Below are positions 33,265-40,859 of a stretch of DNA of 64,000 nucleotides, piece by piece. Both the position numbers and the translations under genes were made by a program. Origin of the DNA: Rhodospirillales bacterium (GTDB lineage: Bacteria > Pseudomonadota > Alphaproteobacteria > Dongiales > Dongiaceae); assembly GCA_009885795.1 (NCBI GenBank), contig VFKA01000040.1, positions 1 to 64,000 of the forward strand, in the 5' to 3' direction. The number at the start of each line of letters is the position of its first letter. Positions within the stretch are counted from its first letter, which is position 1. The notes under the pieces are model-generated. The model ran no database searches, had not been told where the DNA came from, and was given only the letters and a program-made list of their open reading frames with translations.

Positions 33265-35748
33265 TCAAGCCAGCACGCGCGCGACCTGCTCCAATTCGAA
33301 GCATTCGATCACGTCGCCCGGCTGGATGTCCTGGTAATTCTCGAAGGCCATGCCGCATTCATAGCCTTCCTTCACGTCGCGGACCTCGTCCTTGAACCGC
33401 TTCAAGGTGCGCAACGACCCCTCGTGAATGACGACGTTGTCGCGGAGCAACCGCACCTTGGCGCCGCGCTTGACCTGCCCCTCGGTCACCATGCAGCCGG
33501 CGACGCGGCCGACCTTGGTGATGGTGAAGACCTCGCGAATGGCGGCGTTACCGAGGAATTTCTCGCGCAGGATCGGTTTCAGCATACCCGACAGAATGGC
33601 CTTCATGTCGTCGACGACATTGTAGATGATCGAGTAATAGCGGATGTCGACGCCATCGCGCTTGGCCATCTCGCGCGCCTGGGGATTGGCGCGGACGTTG
33701 AAGCCGATGATGATGGCGCTCGATGCGCGGGCCAGCGTCACATCCGATTCGTTGATGCCGCCGACGCCGGCATGGAGCACGCGCATGGCCGCTTCCTCGT
33801 CGCCGAGGCGCGACAGCGAATCGCCGATCGCCTCGAGCGAACCTTGCACGTCGGACTTCAACACGACCGCGACTTCCTTGGCCTCGCCGGCCGCCATCTT
33901 GGAGAACTGCTGCTCCATCGTGCCGCGCACGGCCGCCGCGGCGTCGCGCTCGCGCTCGCGCGAGCGGCGGAATTCCGTGATCTCGCGGGCGCGGCTCTCG
34001 CTTTCGACGACGACGAAATCGTCGCCGGCCAAGGGTATCGCCTGAAGGCCGACGATTTCGGCGGGCGTGCCGGGACCCACCGCGGTAATCGCGCCGCCGC
34101 GGTCGTCCAGCATCGCGCGCACGCGCCCCCATTCCTTGCCGCACACGAGGTTGTCGCCGACATTGAGGGTGCCGCGCTGCACAAGAAGCGTCGCCACGAC
34201 GCCGCGCCCGCGATCGAGGCGCGCCTCGATGACGCGCCCGCTGGCCGGGCGGTTCGGATTGGCCCGAAGGTCGAGAATCTCGGCCTGCAGCAGAATGATC
34301 TCTTCCAGCTTTTCGATGTTCTGCCTGGTCTTGGCCGAGACCTCGACATCGAGAACGTCGCCGCCCATCGCCTCGACGACCAGCCCGTGCTGCAGCATTT
34401 CCTGGCGCACGCGCTCGGGCTTCGCGTCCGGTTTGTCGACCTTGTTGATGGCGACGATGATCGGCGCGCCAGCCGCCTTGGCGTGATTGATGGCTTCCAC
34501 CGTCTGCGGCATGATGCCGTCATCGGCGGCGACAACCAGGACGATGATATCGGTCACGTTGGCGCCGCGCGCGCGCATCTGCGAAAACGCGGCGTGTCCC
34601 GGCGTGTCGATGAAGGTGATCCGCTGCCCGCTCGGCCGGGTTACCTGATAGGCGCCGATATGCTGGGTGATGCCGCCGGCTTCGTGGCCGGCCACGTCGG
34701 TCTGGCGTATGGCGTCGAGCAACGAGGTCTTGCCATGGTCGACGTGGCCCATGACGGTGACCACCGGGGGCCGGGGCGAGAGCGTCGCCGGGTCGTCCGT
34801 ATCGCCCGCCAGGCCCATCTCGACATCGGCGGCCGACACGCGGCGCACGCGGTGCCCGAACTCGATGACGACCAGCTCGGCCGTTTCCGGGTCGAGCGAC
34901 TGGTTGACGTTGGCCATGATCCCGGCTTTCATCAGCGACTTGATCACGTCGGCGCCGCGTACCGCCATGCGATTGGCGAGCTCCTGAACCGTGATCGATT
35001 CGGGCACCACCACGTCGCGGATGACTTTCTGGCCCTCGCTGCGCAGCTCCTGGGCGCGCTGCTTTTCCTTCTCGCGCGCCCGGCGCACGGATGCGAGCGA
35101 ACGCATGCGCTCTTCATCGGCATCGCCAAGGGCCTGGGTGACGGTGATCTTGCCGGCCCGCCGGCGCGGTTCGCCGCGCCGGGCGATCGAGATCGGCTTG
35201 GCGAGCGTGGTCTTGCCCGGCCGGCGCCTTGTGGGAGCTTCCTCTTCCTCCTCGGCCTCGACCTTGGGCAGGGCCCTGGCGGCCCGCGCCACGGCCGCCT
35301 CGACATCCGTCGGCGGTGCCGATTGGGAAGCAGCGGCCGCCTCGGCCGCCCGTTCCTCGGCGAGGTCGACGCCGCGCAGGAGCGCATCGGCTTCGGTGAC
35401 GCGGCGCAGTTCATCGTCGCGACGAGCCTCCTCGAGCGCTTTCAACCTTGTCGCGCGCTCGCCGACCGTTAGATGGTCGATCGCATCGGCGCCAAGCATC
35501 GGCGTGCCTTCGACCGCCTTGGCCGCTTCGGCGCCGGCCACGACCTCGGTCATGCCCCCGCCCGCGCCTAGCGCGAAGGTACGCTTCTTCTTGACCTCGA
35601 CCTGGACGGTCTTGGTGCGGCCATGGGGGAAGCTTTGGCGGACCTGCCCGGCCTCGACGGTCTTCTTGATTTCGAGCCGTCCCGGCCGCGACAATCTCAG
35701 CGACTTGCGCTCGCCACCTTCCGGCACTTCTTTTTGCTGCTCGGTCAT
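33265..35748 (-). CDS. infB: translation initiation factor IF-2
   Basis: IF-2 is the GTPase that places initiator tRNA on the 30S subunit. The 827 residues comprise a charged N-terminal region (about 1-230), the IF2_N motif [21 protein letters not shown], and the G domain with G1 [19 protein letters not shown] and NKVDK. The C-terminal domains end in [20 protein letters not shown] 35748 is preceded by AGGAC and overlaps the stop of the ylxR-type gene (ATGA). A GTG 12 codons upstream is unlikely. Confidence 0.97.
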
Positions 35749-36407
35749 TGTCCTGTTCGTTCCTTGCCGGCGTCCCAGCGCCACTCAGCCATCCGCCGCC
35801 ATTCGACAGCCAATCGTTCCGCCATGCGCCCGCGCGCCACGGCGCCATGGACGACGTGCTCGCGGCCAAGCGCGGATGATAGCGCCGAGGCTTCGAACCC
35901 GTCGATGATCACGATGTCCGGGGACAGCTTTCCGAGCTTTCGCCGCCCTTCCGCGGAGGCATCGCTGGCTTGGACCAACACGCCGGCGCCCCCGGCGCGG
36001 ATCATGGCGCGAACCTGCTCGAATCCCAGCACGACATCGCCCGAGCGGCGGGCCAGTCCCAAGGCGTCGAGAACGCGACGCGACAACGCTTCGCCGATCC
36101 GCTCGCCGAGATCGGGCGCCACCGCGACCGCGCACCGGGCGGCCTTGCGGAAGAGGCCGCGGGCAACCGCCTGGTCGAACAGCCGGCGCGAGGGAACGAG
36201 CCACAATCCGCGCCCCGGCAGGCGGCCGGCCAGATCGGGCGTCAGCTGGCCGTCGGGCGCGACGACGAATCGGAGCATCGCTTCCTTGGCCCGCGACGAG
36301 CGCGTAACGACACAGCGCCGTCGAGGATCGACGCCTGGCGCGCGCGCCGGTCCCGATTCGAGAGCCGGCACCCCGGACATTGCCGCGGTCGTTGCGATCG
36401 TCTGCAT
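35745..36407 (-). CDS. YlxR-like RNA-binding protein fused to an L7Ae-like domain
   Basis: This gene sits between nusA and infB. The N-terminal half is the YlxR/DUF448 fold ([21 protein letters not shown] ... [19 protein letters not shown]). The C-terminal half resembles ribosomal L7Ae-type RNA-binding domains ([41 protein letters not shown]). The fusion is typical for alphaproteobacteria and suggests binding of structured RNA. The start is uncertain among ATG 36407, ATG 36380 and TTG 36422. It has about 220 residues, and its stop overlaps infB by 4 bp. Confidence 0.9.
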
Positions 36408-36431
36408 GCCTACCCGATTCAATTCCCGTTC

Positions 36432-37982
36432 CTAGGCCTCGGCGGCGCCATCGCCCGGCGCCGGTTCATTCGCGAACCAGTGCGCGCGCGCCGCCATGAT
36501 GATGGCGTTGGCGTCGTTCTCGGCAAGCGAGAAATCCTTGAGAATGCCTTCGGCGCGATCGGTCAGCTCGTCGGAGGCAAGATCGGCAAGATCGTCGATG
36601 GTCTTCACGCCCTTCTCGCCCAGCGCCACCAGCATCGCCGGCGTCAGGCCGGGAACGGCCGCGACTTCGTCGCTGACGCCAAGCTCGCGGCGCTTCTCGC
36701 CCAGTTTTTCGTCGCGCTCCTGCAGAAAGACGCGGGCGCGGTCGCGCAACTCGCGCGCTACGTCCTCGTCGAAACCCTCGATCTCCGCCAATTCCTCCAG
36801 CGGCACGAAGGCGACCTCCTCGACCTTGGTGAAGCCCTCGGTGACGAGGAGATGGGCGATCACGTCATCGACGTCGAGCGCCTCGATGAACGTGCTGGTA
36901 CGGGACCGGACCTCCTCGGTGCGGCGATCGGATTCCTCCGCCTCGGTCAGGATGTCGATGTTCCAGCCCGTGAGCATGGAGGCGAGCCGCACGTTCTGCC
37001 CGCGCCGGCCGATGGCGAGGCTCAACTGATCGTCGGGCACGACCACGTCGATGCGGTGCGCGTCTTCGTCCAGCACGACCTTGGTCACCTCGGCCGGCGC
37101 CAGCGCGTTGACGACGAAGGTGGCCGTATCGGGCGACCAGGGAATGATATCGATCTTTTCGCCCTGCAATTCGCCGACCACCGCCTGCACGCGGCTGCCG
37201 CGCATGCCGACGCAGGCCCCCACCGGATCGATCGAGCTGTCGTTGGAGATGACGGCGATCTTGGCGCGGCTGCCGGGGTCGCGGGCGACGGACTTGATTT
37301 CGATGATGCTGTCGTAGATTTCCGGCACTTCCTGGGCGAAGAGCTTGGCCATGAACTGCGGATGCGTGCGCGACAGGAAGATCTGGGGCCCGCGCGATTC
37401 TTCGCGCACGTCGACGATGTAGGAGCGCACCCGGTCGCCGACGCGAAACGTCTCGCGCGGCAGCAATTCGTCCCGGCGCAGCATCCCTTCGGCGCGCCCG
37501 AGATCGACGGTGACGTTGCCGAACTCGACGCGCTTGACGAGGCCGTTCACGATCTCGCCCTTGCGGTCCTTGTACTCCTCGAATTGGCGTTTGCGCTCGG
37601 CTTCGCGCACGCGCTGGACGATGACCTGCTTGGCGGTCTGCGCCGCGATGCGGCCGAAATCGATGGGCGGCAGGTCTTCGACCACGAACTCGCCCAGCGC
37701 CATCGGCGGTTTGTAGCGCAGGGCTTCGGCGAGCGGGATCTGCGTCGCCTCGTTCTCGACTGGGTCGGCTATTTGACGGAAACGCTGCAAGCGGATCTCG
37801 CCCGATTTGCGGTCGATGACGGCGCGGATGTCGTGCTCATGGCCGTACTTCGAACGGCCGGCTTTTTGAATCGCCTGCTCCATCGCCTCCAGCACCTCGT
37901 CGCGCTCGATGCCCTTTTCCCGGGCGACGGCGTCGGCGACTTGCAACAATTCGTGCCGGGTGACTGTTAGAATCGCTTCCAT
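36432..37982 (-). CDS. nusA: transcription termination/antitermination protein NusA
   Basis: NusA is an RNA-polymerase-binding factor of 516 residues. It has the N-terminal domain (about 1-125), then S1 (VEFGNVTVDLGRAEGMLRRDELLPRETFRVGDRVR). KH domains follow (DPGSRAKIAVISNDSSIDPVGACVGMRGSRVQAV and SLAIGRRGQNVRLASMLTGW). The C-terminal helix-hairpin-helix acidic repeats (AAVPGLTPAMLVALGEKGVKTIDDLADL) are those expected in this class. The order rimP-nusA-ylxR-infB is standard. Confidence 0.98.
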   Translation of the reverse strand: MEAILTVTRHELLQVADAVAREKGIERDEVLEAMEQAIQKAGRSKYGHEHDIRAVIDRKSGEIRLQRFRQIADPVENEATQIPLAEALRYKPPMALGEFVVEDLPPIDFGRIAAQTAKQVIVQRVREAERKRQFEEYKDRKGEIVNGLVKRVEFGNVTVDLGRAEGMLRRDELLPRETFRVGDRVRSYIVDVREESRGPQIFLSRTHPQFMAKLFAQEVPEIYDSIIEIKSVARDPGSRAKIAVISNDSSIDPVGACVGMRGSRVQAVVGELQGEKIDIIPWSPDTATFVVNALAPAEVTKVVLDEDAHRIDVVVPDDQLSLAIGRRGQNVRLASMLTGWNIDILTEAEESDRRTEEVRSRTSTFIEALDVDDVIAHLLVTEGFTKVEEVAFVPLEELAEIEGFDEDVARELRDRARVFLQERDEKLGEKRRELGVSDEVAAVPGLTPAMLVALGEKGVKTIDDLADLASDELTDRAEGILKDFSLAENDANAIIMAARAHWFANEPAPGDGAAEA

Positions 37983-38007
37983 GGAATCCTCTGGTTCTCT
38001 TCTTTTT

Positions 38008-38511
38008 CTAACGAGCGGCCGGCTTGCCCGCGATGAGCTCGTCGGTCAGCACCAGCTTGGCGCGCAGAATTTCGGCTAGCGGCACCGCGGCTTCGCCTTC
38101 GGGCGTCGCGATCCGCACGCGGTCGCCGTCGAGGCCGACGAGACGCCCACGAAATCGCCGGCGGCCCTCGACCGGCGCTTTCGTCTCCAGCTTGGCCTCG
38201 TGGCCGGCGAAACGCTCATAGTCGCCGGCCCGCGTCAGCGGCCGGTCGATGCCGGGGGAACTGACCTCGAGCGCATAGGCGCCGGCAATCGGATCCTCGA
38301 CATCGAGCAGCGCCGAGAGCGCCTGGCTCACCGCCCGGCAATCCTCGACCGCCAGCGCCCTGGCGTCGGCGCGCTCGATCATGACCTGCAGGGCCGTACG
38401 GTGGCTGCCGCCCGAGAGCAGCACGCGCACCACGCGGTAACCCATCGCCTCGACGGTGGGTGCGATCGACGTTTCGATGTCCGCGGCCTTGTCCACGTCT
38501 TTGGTGCCCAT
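38008..38511 (-). CDS. rimP: ribosome maturation factor RimP
   Basis: RimP assists early assembly of the 30S subunit. The 167 residues include ALQVMIERADARALAVEDCRAVSQALSALLDVEDPIAGAYALEVSSPGIDRPLTRAGDYERFAGHEAKL, the family core, and a C-terminal SH3-like domain. It heads the nusA-infB operon. A terminator-like hairpin lies 48 bases upstream of the ATG inside a probable leader. Confidence 0.96.
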   Translation of the reverse strand: MGTKDVDKAADIETSIAPTVEAMGYRVVRVLLSGGSHRTALQVMIERADARALAVEDCRAVSQALSALLDVEDPIAGAYALEVSSPGIDRPLTRAGDYERFAGHEAKLETKAPVEGRRRFRGRLVGLDGDRVRIATPEGEAAVPLAEILRAKLVLTDELIAGKPAAR

Positions 38512-38558
38512 GGTTCTTGAAAAACGATCAGGCCAAGAGTTCCGGCTTCCGGTTCAAC

Positions 38559-38584
38559 AAAAAAGGCGGGCCGTTGGCCCACCC
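38559..38584 (-). terminator. Rho-independent terminator/attenuator upstream of rimP
   Basis: The minus-strand RNA has GGUGGGCC-AAC-GGCCCGCC (8-bp stem with one G-U pair) followed by UUUUUU. It is either the terminator of the methyltransferase-like gene ending at 38690 or an attenuator. The best promoter lies upstream of it (38626-38655), and I see none between it and rimP. An AAGGCGGG at 38596-38603 (minus) could also pair with the 3' arm CCCGCCTT. Confidence 0.7.
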
Positions 38585-38625
38585 TTTTTCAAGTCCCCGC
38601 CTTCATGGACGAGGTTGGTTGCTGG

Positions 38626-38655
38626 GATATAAGGGCGAAAGCCGGATTTTCGCAA
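38626..38655 (-). promoter_or_regulatory. probable promoter of the rimP-nusA-infB operon
   Basis: Minus strand: -35 TTGCGA (38650-38655), 18-base spacer, -10 TATATC (38626-38631). Transcription would start near 38619 and give a leader of about 108 bases containing the hairpin at 38559-38584. Confidence 0.5.
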
Positions 38656-38689
38656 GGGTTTTCTGGCCTTCCGGCGGGCGGGAGCGGAC

Positions 38690-39481
38690 TTATCGAGGCC
38701 GTGGCGTGGGCGGAGCCTGCCAGCCGCCCCTTCGGATCGCCGCGTTCGCGGTCGCGTCTCGCTCGATGCCGAGAAATTCGTCCGTCGTTCGAAGCCGCAG
38801 CAAGTGGCGGAAATGAAGCCGGAAGAAGCGGAACGCCGCCGCATGATCGTGGCCGAGACTCGTCCATTGCTCCACGAGCGGGTCGTGTTCGGTTTTCGCG
38901 GTCCGCGGGGAGGGCGGTCGCGGGGGCGCGGCACGGCGCAGCAATTCCTTGGGCGGAACCGTCCGCCGGATCAGCCCGCATCCGAAATCCGTATCGATCG
39001 TGTAATAGTCGAGCGGCGAGTACTTGATGACGAAATCGAGATAGGCCTTGTAGGTCAGGCCGCACCAAAGACCCCTGTGAAATTCCGGCGTGACCTGATC
39101 TTCGCCGGTCGGAAGGCAATCGTGCACGATCATCGCGCCGCCCTCCGCCAGCAGATAGTAGCCGGCCGCCAGATCGCGAACGGAGGCCTCGTAGCTATGC
39201 CAGGGATCGACGAGGATGACGTCGTAGCGCAGGCGCCGTTCGTCGATCCGCCGGATGCAATCGGCGATATCGATACCGTCACTCTGGAAATCGACCGGCA
39301 GGCCGTCCTCGGGCGGCCGCAGGCAGAGGTAGGATAGCCGATGACAGGTGGTGAACTGGCCGCGGTCGATCTCGGAATATTGTCCGCCGGTCGTCAACGC
39401 GCCGAATTCCAGGTATCGGCGCCAGCCGTTGAGCGCGCCCAGCGTGTTCACGACGTCGGCCTTGGTCCAGGATTTCGACAT
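38690..39481 (-). CDS. class I SAM methyltransferase-like protein
   Basis: This 263-residue protein has a Methyltransf_24-like central region: YLEFGALTTGGQYSEI at the motif I position, and DVILVDPWHSYEASVRDLAAGYYLLAEGGAMIVHDC as the acidic loop and strand 5. The motif I glycines are atypical, so SAM binding is inferred. The C-terminal 70 residues are proline- and Arg-rich. ATG 39481 (MSKSWTKADVV) is used. It lies in a three-gene accessory group between trmB and rimP; the substrate is unknown. Confidence 0.75.
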   Translation of the reverse strand: MSKSWTKADVVNTLGALNGWRRYLEFGALTTGGQYSEIDRGQFTTCHRLSYLCLRPPEDGLPVDFQSDGIDIADCIRRIDERRLRYDVILVDPWHSYEASVRDLAAGYYLLAEGGAMIVHDCLPTGEDQVTPEFHRGLWCGLTYKAYLDFVIKYSPLDYYTIDTDFGCGLIRRTVPPKELLRRAAPPRPPSPRTAKTEHDPLVEQWTSLGHDHAAAFRFFRLHFRHLLRLRTTDEFLGIERDATANAAIRRGGWQAPPTPRPR

Positions 39482-39556
39482 GGTCCGACATTTCCCACCT
39501 CGCCCCGGCATTTCAAGTCTGTTGTTTCCAGGCTGACTCGGAAGTCGCCAATGCGG

Positions 39557-40144
39557 CTACTCCGGCGCCACCGGCGCCGTCGCGCAATCGCCGTGAGCCT
39601 TGATCTTACGCCGAATCTCTTTTTCTCCAAGCATGTCCGGCGTTTCGCAGTCGTTGAGGCAGACTCCAACATACTCCTCGCCATTCCACCACATGCCGTC
39701 AACCCACGAGTAGATATCGACGTGGCCTTGCCGGCGGGTCCCGCTGACGCACAGATTTTCTGCCTCGGACACCGACAGCCAGAGATACTCGCTCCAAACT
39801 CCGTCCTGTTCGCGCATGATGATCGTCTGACAGCCGACAGTGCCGCAAGCCCAGACGATGTAGACGACGAGTTCGCGCCGGCCATCACCGTCGAAATCGT
39901 AGTGTCCGCCATAGAGCCGGTCACGACGCAAGACCTGCCAGGCCTCTTCCGGCGTGTCGGCCATGCCTTCGAGGATGGCCAATTCCTCAATGGGATATTC
40001 GTGATCGGCGAAGTACGACTTCACGATCTCGAACTCGGAATCGGTCAGCCGACCGCGCTCCAGCGAAACGCGCTCGTGCGCCGCGGCGGTAGACGCAACC
40101 GCTACCGCCGCGGCGAAAAGAATTGGGCGTAAAGGCCCGATCAT
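39557..40144 (-). CDS. exported protein of unknown function with a DxDGDG motif
   Basis: This 195-residue protein has a signal peptide (PLRPILFAAAVAVASTAAA) and six cysteines in the mature part, likely disulfide-bonded (WACGTVGCQT, NLCVSG, GVCLNDCETP). The stretch HYDFDGDGRRELVVYIVW is a calcium-binding FG-GAP-like loop often seen in surface or periplasmic proteins. I do not recognise a named family. It begins 4 bp downstream of the lysozyme-like gene, so both are probably one transcript. Confidence 0.75.
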   Translation of the reverse strand: MIGPLRPILFAAAVAVASTAAAHERVSLERGRLTDSEFEIVKSYFADHEYPIEELAILEGMADTPEEAWQVLRRDRLYGGHYDFDGDGRRELVVYIVWACGTVGCQTIIMREQDGVWSEYLWLSVSEAENLCVSGTRRQGHVDIYSWVDGMWWNGEEYVGVCLNDCETPDMLGEKEIRRKIKAHGDCATAPVAPE

Positions 40145-40148
40145 GGCG

Positions 40149-40859
40149 CTATCGGCCCCGCCCGGCTTTGGCCGGCGGCAGAGGCGGCGGGAACGGTAGC
40201 GGCTTCTTGTAGGGGACGCCCTCGAACTCCCGCAGGCGCTCCTCGATACGCGAAAAAGTCTTGCCGTCCTCGCCCTCGACCGCCGCCGGATTGCTAATCC
40301 AGCCCTGATCCCGGACATACGCCAAATAGTCCCTGACTGCCCCGGCCCCTTGGCGGTGGGCGGCGGCGGCAAGTCCGGCGTCCGTGACCGCGAAAGTGCC
40401 GTTCTTGCTGAACACCTTCTGACCGATGTTGCGATAGCCGACCGGGTCCATCGCGAGCGTCACCCGGTTGGCGCGCATGTAAGCCGCGAAGGCGGCCTCC
40501 TGCGCCTGCGGATCGGCCAGGAAATCGGCGGCGCTGTTGACCCCCATCGCACCGGTCCATTGCCCCGCCGCGTCCACCAACCCGGCAGCCATCAAGGCGC
40601 CCTGGCGCAACTGATAGCGGCCGAAGGCGCCCATGGCGCCGCCGGCGGGATTGAACGCGCGGTAGCCGTCCAACTGCGATTCGCGGCGACCGATCTCGTC
40701 GCGGAATTGCAGCGTGAACGGGGATTGTGGCCACGGATCGGCATCAAAATCGCCGGGCGGAACGGGTTTCACTGGAGGTACGGAAAGCGGCGGCGCGTCG
40801 TGCGCGGCGGCTTCGGTCCACGAGCGGTGGGGAGCGTAAGGAAGGTGGGGATTGGGCAT
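40149..40859 (-). CDS. lysozyme/lytic-transglycosylase-like protein
   Basis: The 236 residues include GRRESQLDGYRAFNPAGGAMGAFGRYQL, which matches the catalytic Glu region and the A-x-G-x-YQ signature of SLT-type muramidases. Helical sequence with AAFAAYMRANR and AAAHRQGAGAVRDYL follows. The N-terminus is proline-rich and without a signal peptide, as in phage or tail-associated lysozymes. The C-terminus is a PLPFPPPLPP tail. The product probably cleaves peptidoglycan; the export route is not visible. Confidence 0.65.
   Translation of the reverse strand: MPNPHLPYAPHRSWTEAAAHDAPPLSVPPVKPVPPGDFDADPWPQSPFTLQFRDEIGRRESQLDGYRAFNPAGGAMGAFGRYQLRQGALMAAGLVDAAGQWTGAMGVNSAADFLADPQAQEAAFAAYMRANRVTLAMDPVGYRNIGQKVFSKNGTFAVTDAGLAAAAHRQGAGAVRDYLAYVRDQGWISNPAAVEGEDGKTFSRIEERLREFEGVPYKKPLPFPPPLPPAKAGRGR

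Follow-up and report, generated by a model that had tools for sequence, protein, structure and literature searches.

A putative rimP-leader attenuator upstream of the rimP-nusA-ylxR-infB operon of a Rhodospirillales bacterium

Layout of the leader

NusA stimulates intrinsic termination. The operon that encodes it in this Rhodospirillales bacterium is itself preceded by a terminator-like hairpin, which raises the question of whether the hairpin ends the transcript of the upstream gene or belongs to the leader of the operon and controls it. The features that bear on the question are listed below in the order of transcription; the window is the whole 64 kb stretch of DNA that was analyzed.

38690..39511, minus strand: methyltransferase-like ORF, outside the element (Methyltransf_24 PF13578, 9.2e-05, below its cutoff)
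38626..38655, minus strand: promoter-like TTGCGA-18-TATATC (TTGCGA 38655-38650, TATATC 38631-38626), from sequence and conservation
38595..38614, minus strand: predicted small upstream stem-loop P1, CCUCGUC-CAUGAA-GGCGGGG, from folds and tentative
38596..38603, minus strand: AAGGCGGG, complement of the terminator 3' arm, from sequence; putative antiterminator of the first-pass annotation
38564..38584, minus strand: terminator hairpin GGGUGGGCC-AAC-GGCCCGCCU, from sequence, fold, conservation and covariance model match
38559..38564, minus strand: terminator U-run (U6), from sequence; identical T6 in 17/17 family leaders
38008..38511, minus strand: rimP, operon gene 1 (PF02576 2.7e-22, PF17384 1.1e-14)
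36432..37982, minus strand: nusA (PF08529 1.2e-37, PF13184, S1)
35745..36422, minus strand: ylxR (PF04296 4.5e-19), ORF as listed, real start maybe further in
33265..35784, minus strand: infB, encoding IF-2 (PF11987 9e-42, PF00009, PF04760)

After the hairpin, the minus strand thus carries rimP (start codon at 38511), nusA, ylxR and infB, with 47 nt (38558-38512) between the U-run and rimP, and the intergenic gap upstream of rimP that holds the terminator is 178 nt long. In this genome the ORFs at 38690-40859 sit between trmB and rimP as an insertion, and the one at 40149-40859 has no Pfam match. The first-pass annotation had described a GC stem followed by UUUUUU, and this is present on the minus strand at 38584-38559, reading GGGUGGGCC-AAC-GGCCCGCC and then U6. 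The stem arms GGGUGGGCC (38584-38576) and GGCCCGCCU (38572-38564) enclose an AAC loop, and the predicted fold has nine pairs, a U-G and a G-U among them, and could be extended by A-U pairs; the plus-strand fold of the region is not relevant to this minus-strand element. A strict terminator scan of both strands of the 64 kb found only the rimP-leader terminator, shuffled windows averaging 0.5. One such terminator anywhere in 64 kb is unremarkable; one within a 178-nt gap and conserved in the class is beyond chance.

The sequence TTGCGA-18-TATATC scores 8/12 to consensus, and a sigma-70 scan of 37400-39400 reported no site, the sequence falling under the threshold of the tool. Nevertheless, 62 of 92 leaders carry a promoter of at least 8/12 at a distance of 26-66 nt upstream of the stem, compared to 4.9% of shuffles, and this conservation renders the promoter, which had been proposed earlier and is present at 38655-38626, believable despite its sub-threshold score. 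Transcription would accordingly be placed to start near 38619-38620.

Conservation of the hairpin and its link with rimP

The locus sample comprised the 80 top-ranking relatives of NusA in named genomes and 17 family genomes, the window's own included, giving 97 loci, all but one of which (L016) have a RimP match. A hairpin was assigned in 94 of the 96 rimP leaders, counting that of the window, 83 of them by pattern (hairpin and U-run) and 11 by eye; among these 96 leaders, L018 (a rimP fragment) and L028 have no assignable hairpin. The comparison of related leaders, suggested previously as a check, therefore finds the hairpin conserved. The strict scan, when applied to the collected loci, returned 70 rimP-leader terminators versus 27 others. 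The sequence of the stem is also preserved: of the 78 distinct hairpins, 64 have U-G as the central pair, 9 have U-A and 3 have C-G, and the pairs at -1, +1 and +2 relative to the central U are G-C in 77, 75 and 78, respectively, and never C-G. Acetobacteraceae-type leaders carry GGGUGGCC where the window has GGGUGGGCC. In seven of the 94 leaders (L017, L030, L031, L045, L070, L076 and L080), all belonging to the 11 assigned by eye, the U-run is broken or gone while the hairpin is kept, such that termination may not be its sole role.

Specificity for rimP was examined with a covariance model, R1, built from 30 leaders. On the window's own genome, R1 gives one strong match (48.6 bits), followed by 20.5 bits for the opposite strand of that site and then by 16.2 bits. 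In the class (124 genomes), all 21 listed matches scoring at least 35 bits lie directly upstream of a RimP domain, as do 39 of the 55 listed at 30 bits or more, and at least 54 of the 110 class genomes having PF02576 show a match (E<=0.01) upstream of rimP. Of the other 56, 20 were inspected visually: a divergent promoter-proximal hairpin is present in 16, and an intact hairpin is absent in four (broken in L119; none in L111, L123 and L124). On 60 genomes of the phylum, R1 matched 10 at E 1e-4, including the window's own and one family member. Three phylum matches outside the class score 40.2 bits, and the two examined both precede a RimP match; below 40 bits, the five examined (L128-L132) are not upstream of a RimP match.

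The spacing of the elements addresses the question of ownership. Between the -10 box and the stem the interval varies little (median 41, quartiles 34-45, range 27-64), and between the U-run and rimP it varies widely (-9 to 161). The upstream neighbour changes as well: in the 77 loci usable for this count, 17 being too short, trmB is the immediate neighbour in 34, lies elsewhere in 18 and is missing from 25. Since it is the promoter to which the hairpin holds a steady spacing, whereas its distances to rimP and the upstream gene vary, a leader attenuator describes it better than a terminator closing the methyltransferase transcript. The hairpin would thus belong to the rimP promoter, which argues against a terminator of the upstream gene. 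The earlier proposal that rimP-nusA-infB is attenuated by a leader terminator finds strong support in this comparison (94/96 leaders, the specificity of R1 and the promoter spacing), which at the sequence level establishes the order promoter-terminator-rimP, its conservation, its link with rimP and, as detailed below, the absence of a conserved antiterminator.

Known rimP leaders and the probable mechanism

An element of this type has been described by Naville and Gautheret (2010, PMC2965389) as the rimP-leader, the most ubiquitous attenuator, with a GGGc...gCCC stem and no antiterminator; NusA is named there as the best candidate effector. The window's leader is likewise located 5' of rimP, the first gene of rimP-nusA-infB, its stem GGGCC-AAC-GGCCC fits the GGGc(...)gCCC form with U6 directly after, and its 47 nt between terminator and gene fall within the 4-130 nt given in PMC2965389. 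As in that description, no antiterminator is conserved here, one match occurring in the window alone. The leader therefore has all the testable sequence features of the general rimP-leader and is a new example of an element already described, to which the window's family contributes a further small stem-loop, predicted to form between the start site and the terminator. A literature search found no paper on the rimP leader in Alphaproteobacteria among the sources it covered.

The Rfam family RF01770 (rimP) is listed as a gammaproteobacterial rimP leader in PMC5955585. The gene context of the two is alike, yet RF01770 has no match in the window, neither at its gathering score nor at E up to 10, and over 61 relatives none scores above the cut-off, with sub-threshold scatter only. 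By score, the window's leader is not a member of RF01770.

Two published systems share the arrangement. As in the NusA-autoregulated leader of B. subtilis, a promoter is followed by an intrinsic terminator and then by a nusA-containing operon; in contrast to that leader, the terminator of the window looks canonical rather than weak, and its dependence on NusA would be by analogy. The B. subtilis leader studied by Mondal et al. in 2016 reportedly lacks an antiterminator. B. subtilis NusA is autoregulated via NusA-stimulated termination in its leader, according to a review (PMC12288461). In S. agalactiae, which is of another phylum than the window's organism, RNA-seq of gbs0413-gbs0418 revealed, upstream of rimP, a short RNA whose end lies 31 nt from the start, and NusA feedback was put forward as the explanation (PMC4448216). 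The terminator there, as here, directly precedes rimP, at 31 nt from the start compared to about 60 in the window; in S. agalactiae, RNA-seq documents a short and a long transcript that share one start (PMC4448216), as would be predicted for the window's leader.

We consider it probable that the hairpin is a promoter-proximal intrinsic terminator, an alphaproteobacterial rimP-leader, most likely serving NusA-stimulated negative feedback. RNA polymerase would start near 38620 and reach the terminator about 60 nt on, where some polymerases would stop and yield a short leader RNA, the remainder reading into rimP-nusA-ylxR-infB. The stopped fraction would most likely rise with NusA, so that a product of the operon would restrain its expression without the need for an RNA switch. 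We infer that termination takes place at the hairpin in vivo, and the candidacy of NusA as effector draws on general NusA biology and on the B. subtilis and S. agalactiae cases. What counts against NusA feedback is that the window's terminator looks strong (nine pairs, U6), which would leave less room for NusA; the B. subtilis terminators that are most NusA-dependent are weak ones (PMC12288461).

The leader might instead be an attenuator that answers to a signal other than NusA, such as RimP, a ribosomal signal, NusG or a dedicated RNA-binding protein reading the G-rich arm, or one that simply sets a fixed low read-through. The conservation of the stem in sequence beyond pairing (G-C in 77, 75 and 78 of 78) points to recognition, as Naville and Gautheret also argue (PMC2965389), and the hairpin is kept where the U-run is lost; the published cases, however, point to NusA, and the present analysis found no candidate factor. 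We regard this explanation as unlikely.

Alternative structures in the leader and meaning of the element

The folding of the region between start and terminator differs among groups of leaders, whose labels (aceto, rhizo, other) were taken from record titles and in some cases from the hairpin type, and are not independent of the leader. The small stem-loop is strongest in the 17 family leaders (mean z -1.82; 9/17 at p<=0.05), and the same region gives a mean z of -1.19 in 30 assorted Rhodospirillales-like leaders (10 at p<=0.05), -0.58 in 21 Rhizobiales-like leaders (2) and +0.38 in 25 Acetobacteraceae-type leaders (0). The window's P1 (CCUCGUC-CAUGAA-GGCGGGG) has z -1.36 (p 0.09) and contains most of AAGGCGGG. 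Its arms vary among relatives yet pair (100%), a tally biased by the picking of arms from folds, and an unbiased covariation count in one subclade of seven leaders gave no two-sided change and was not above shuffles. MAFFT misregisters the P1 arms, so that RNAalifold on the alignment displays the terminator only. P1 is thus a tentative lead, a small predicted hairpin 5' of the terminator, and the only part of the leader that we have not seen described before. That P1 might modulate NusA loading or termination, as in a two-part sensor, with the hairpin also read as a termination-independent RNA signal (a pause or protein site), is rather improbable.

Several further features of the leader were noted. 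ATGA recurs in family P1 loops with no conserved reading frame by eye, and a leader peptide (ATG AAG GCG GGG ACT TGA, 38606-38589, five codons) was rejected for lack of a Shine-Dalgarno sequence and of conservation by eye. A 9-nt perfect complement, CUUGAAAAA/UUUUUCAAG (38593-38585 and 38524-38516), has p 0.007 in the window; as a pairing of the leader with the stretch before rimP it was rejected, the relatives having different matches or none. At the inferred 5' end of the transcript, a similar stretch (ATCCCATA, ACCCATA, ATCCCAG, TTCCCAG or ATCCCGT) was seen by eye in L012, L014, L015, L020, L023, L029, L090, L093, L094 and L096-L105.

The first-pass annotation had envisaged an antiterminator, and AAGGCGGG (38603-38596) is indeed an exact 8-nt complement of CCCGCCUU (38570-38563) in the terminator 3' arm. 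An RNA switch would follow, in which pairing of AAGGCGGG with CCCGCCUU would keep the terminator from forming and P1 (CCUCGUC/GGCGGGG) would hold AAGGCGGG back; P1 and the antiterminator are mutually exclusive by sequence, and the window's own 3'-arm duplex is unusual (z about -2.4 to -2.5, p 0.01-0.03). The exact match stands, but its conservation does not: it is present in one of 17 family leaders, the window's own, the longest perfect match between leader and 3' arm being 3-6 nt in the 16 relatives, and 3'-arm pairing beats shuffles in just 2/17 family leaders and in 0/30, 0/25 and 1/21 leaders of the other groups. Over 93 leaders, pairing is no better than in dinucleotide shuffles (mean z -0.15 for the 5' arm and -0.22 for the 3' arm). 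Comparison of relatives, proposed as a check of the alternative pairing, thus speaks against it; AAGGCGGG was rejected as antiterminator, as was a fixed duplex between the leader 5' end and the 5' arm of the terminator, and a switch of this kind is very unlikely. In Acetobacteraceae-type leaders, a CAUCUUCC-like stretch near the start (L027, L033, L037, L040, L044, L048, L053, L058, L060 and L064) can pair with the GGGGGGUG terminator 5' arm. For the 25 leaders of this type, 5'-arm pairing has a mean z of -0.73, three being at p<=0.05, and CAUCUUCC/GGGGGGUG is a possible clade-specific antiterminator.

We give hardly any credence to the explanation that the hairpin merely ends the methyltransferase transcript, with rimP starting downstream of 38559, for although the hairpin lies 105 nt past the stop codon of that ORF and would also block its read-through, it tracks rimP and the promoter while the upstream gene changes, none of the 95 other rimP loci contains a homologue of the ORF, and a scan of 38558-38512 found no promoter between hairpin and rimP, in agreement with the first-pass annotation, this last being weak evidence as the same scan misses the upstream promoter.

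NusA, IF-2 and RimP connect transcription with ribosome assembly, and a leader terminator before their genes would be a direct handle for feedback. The element escapes the Rfam model in Alphaproteobacteria, where it is very widespread. The R1 model and the set of about 95 leaders may be used to ask whether NusA feedback extends throughout the class and what reads the conserved G-rich arm.
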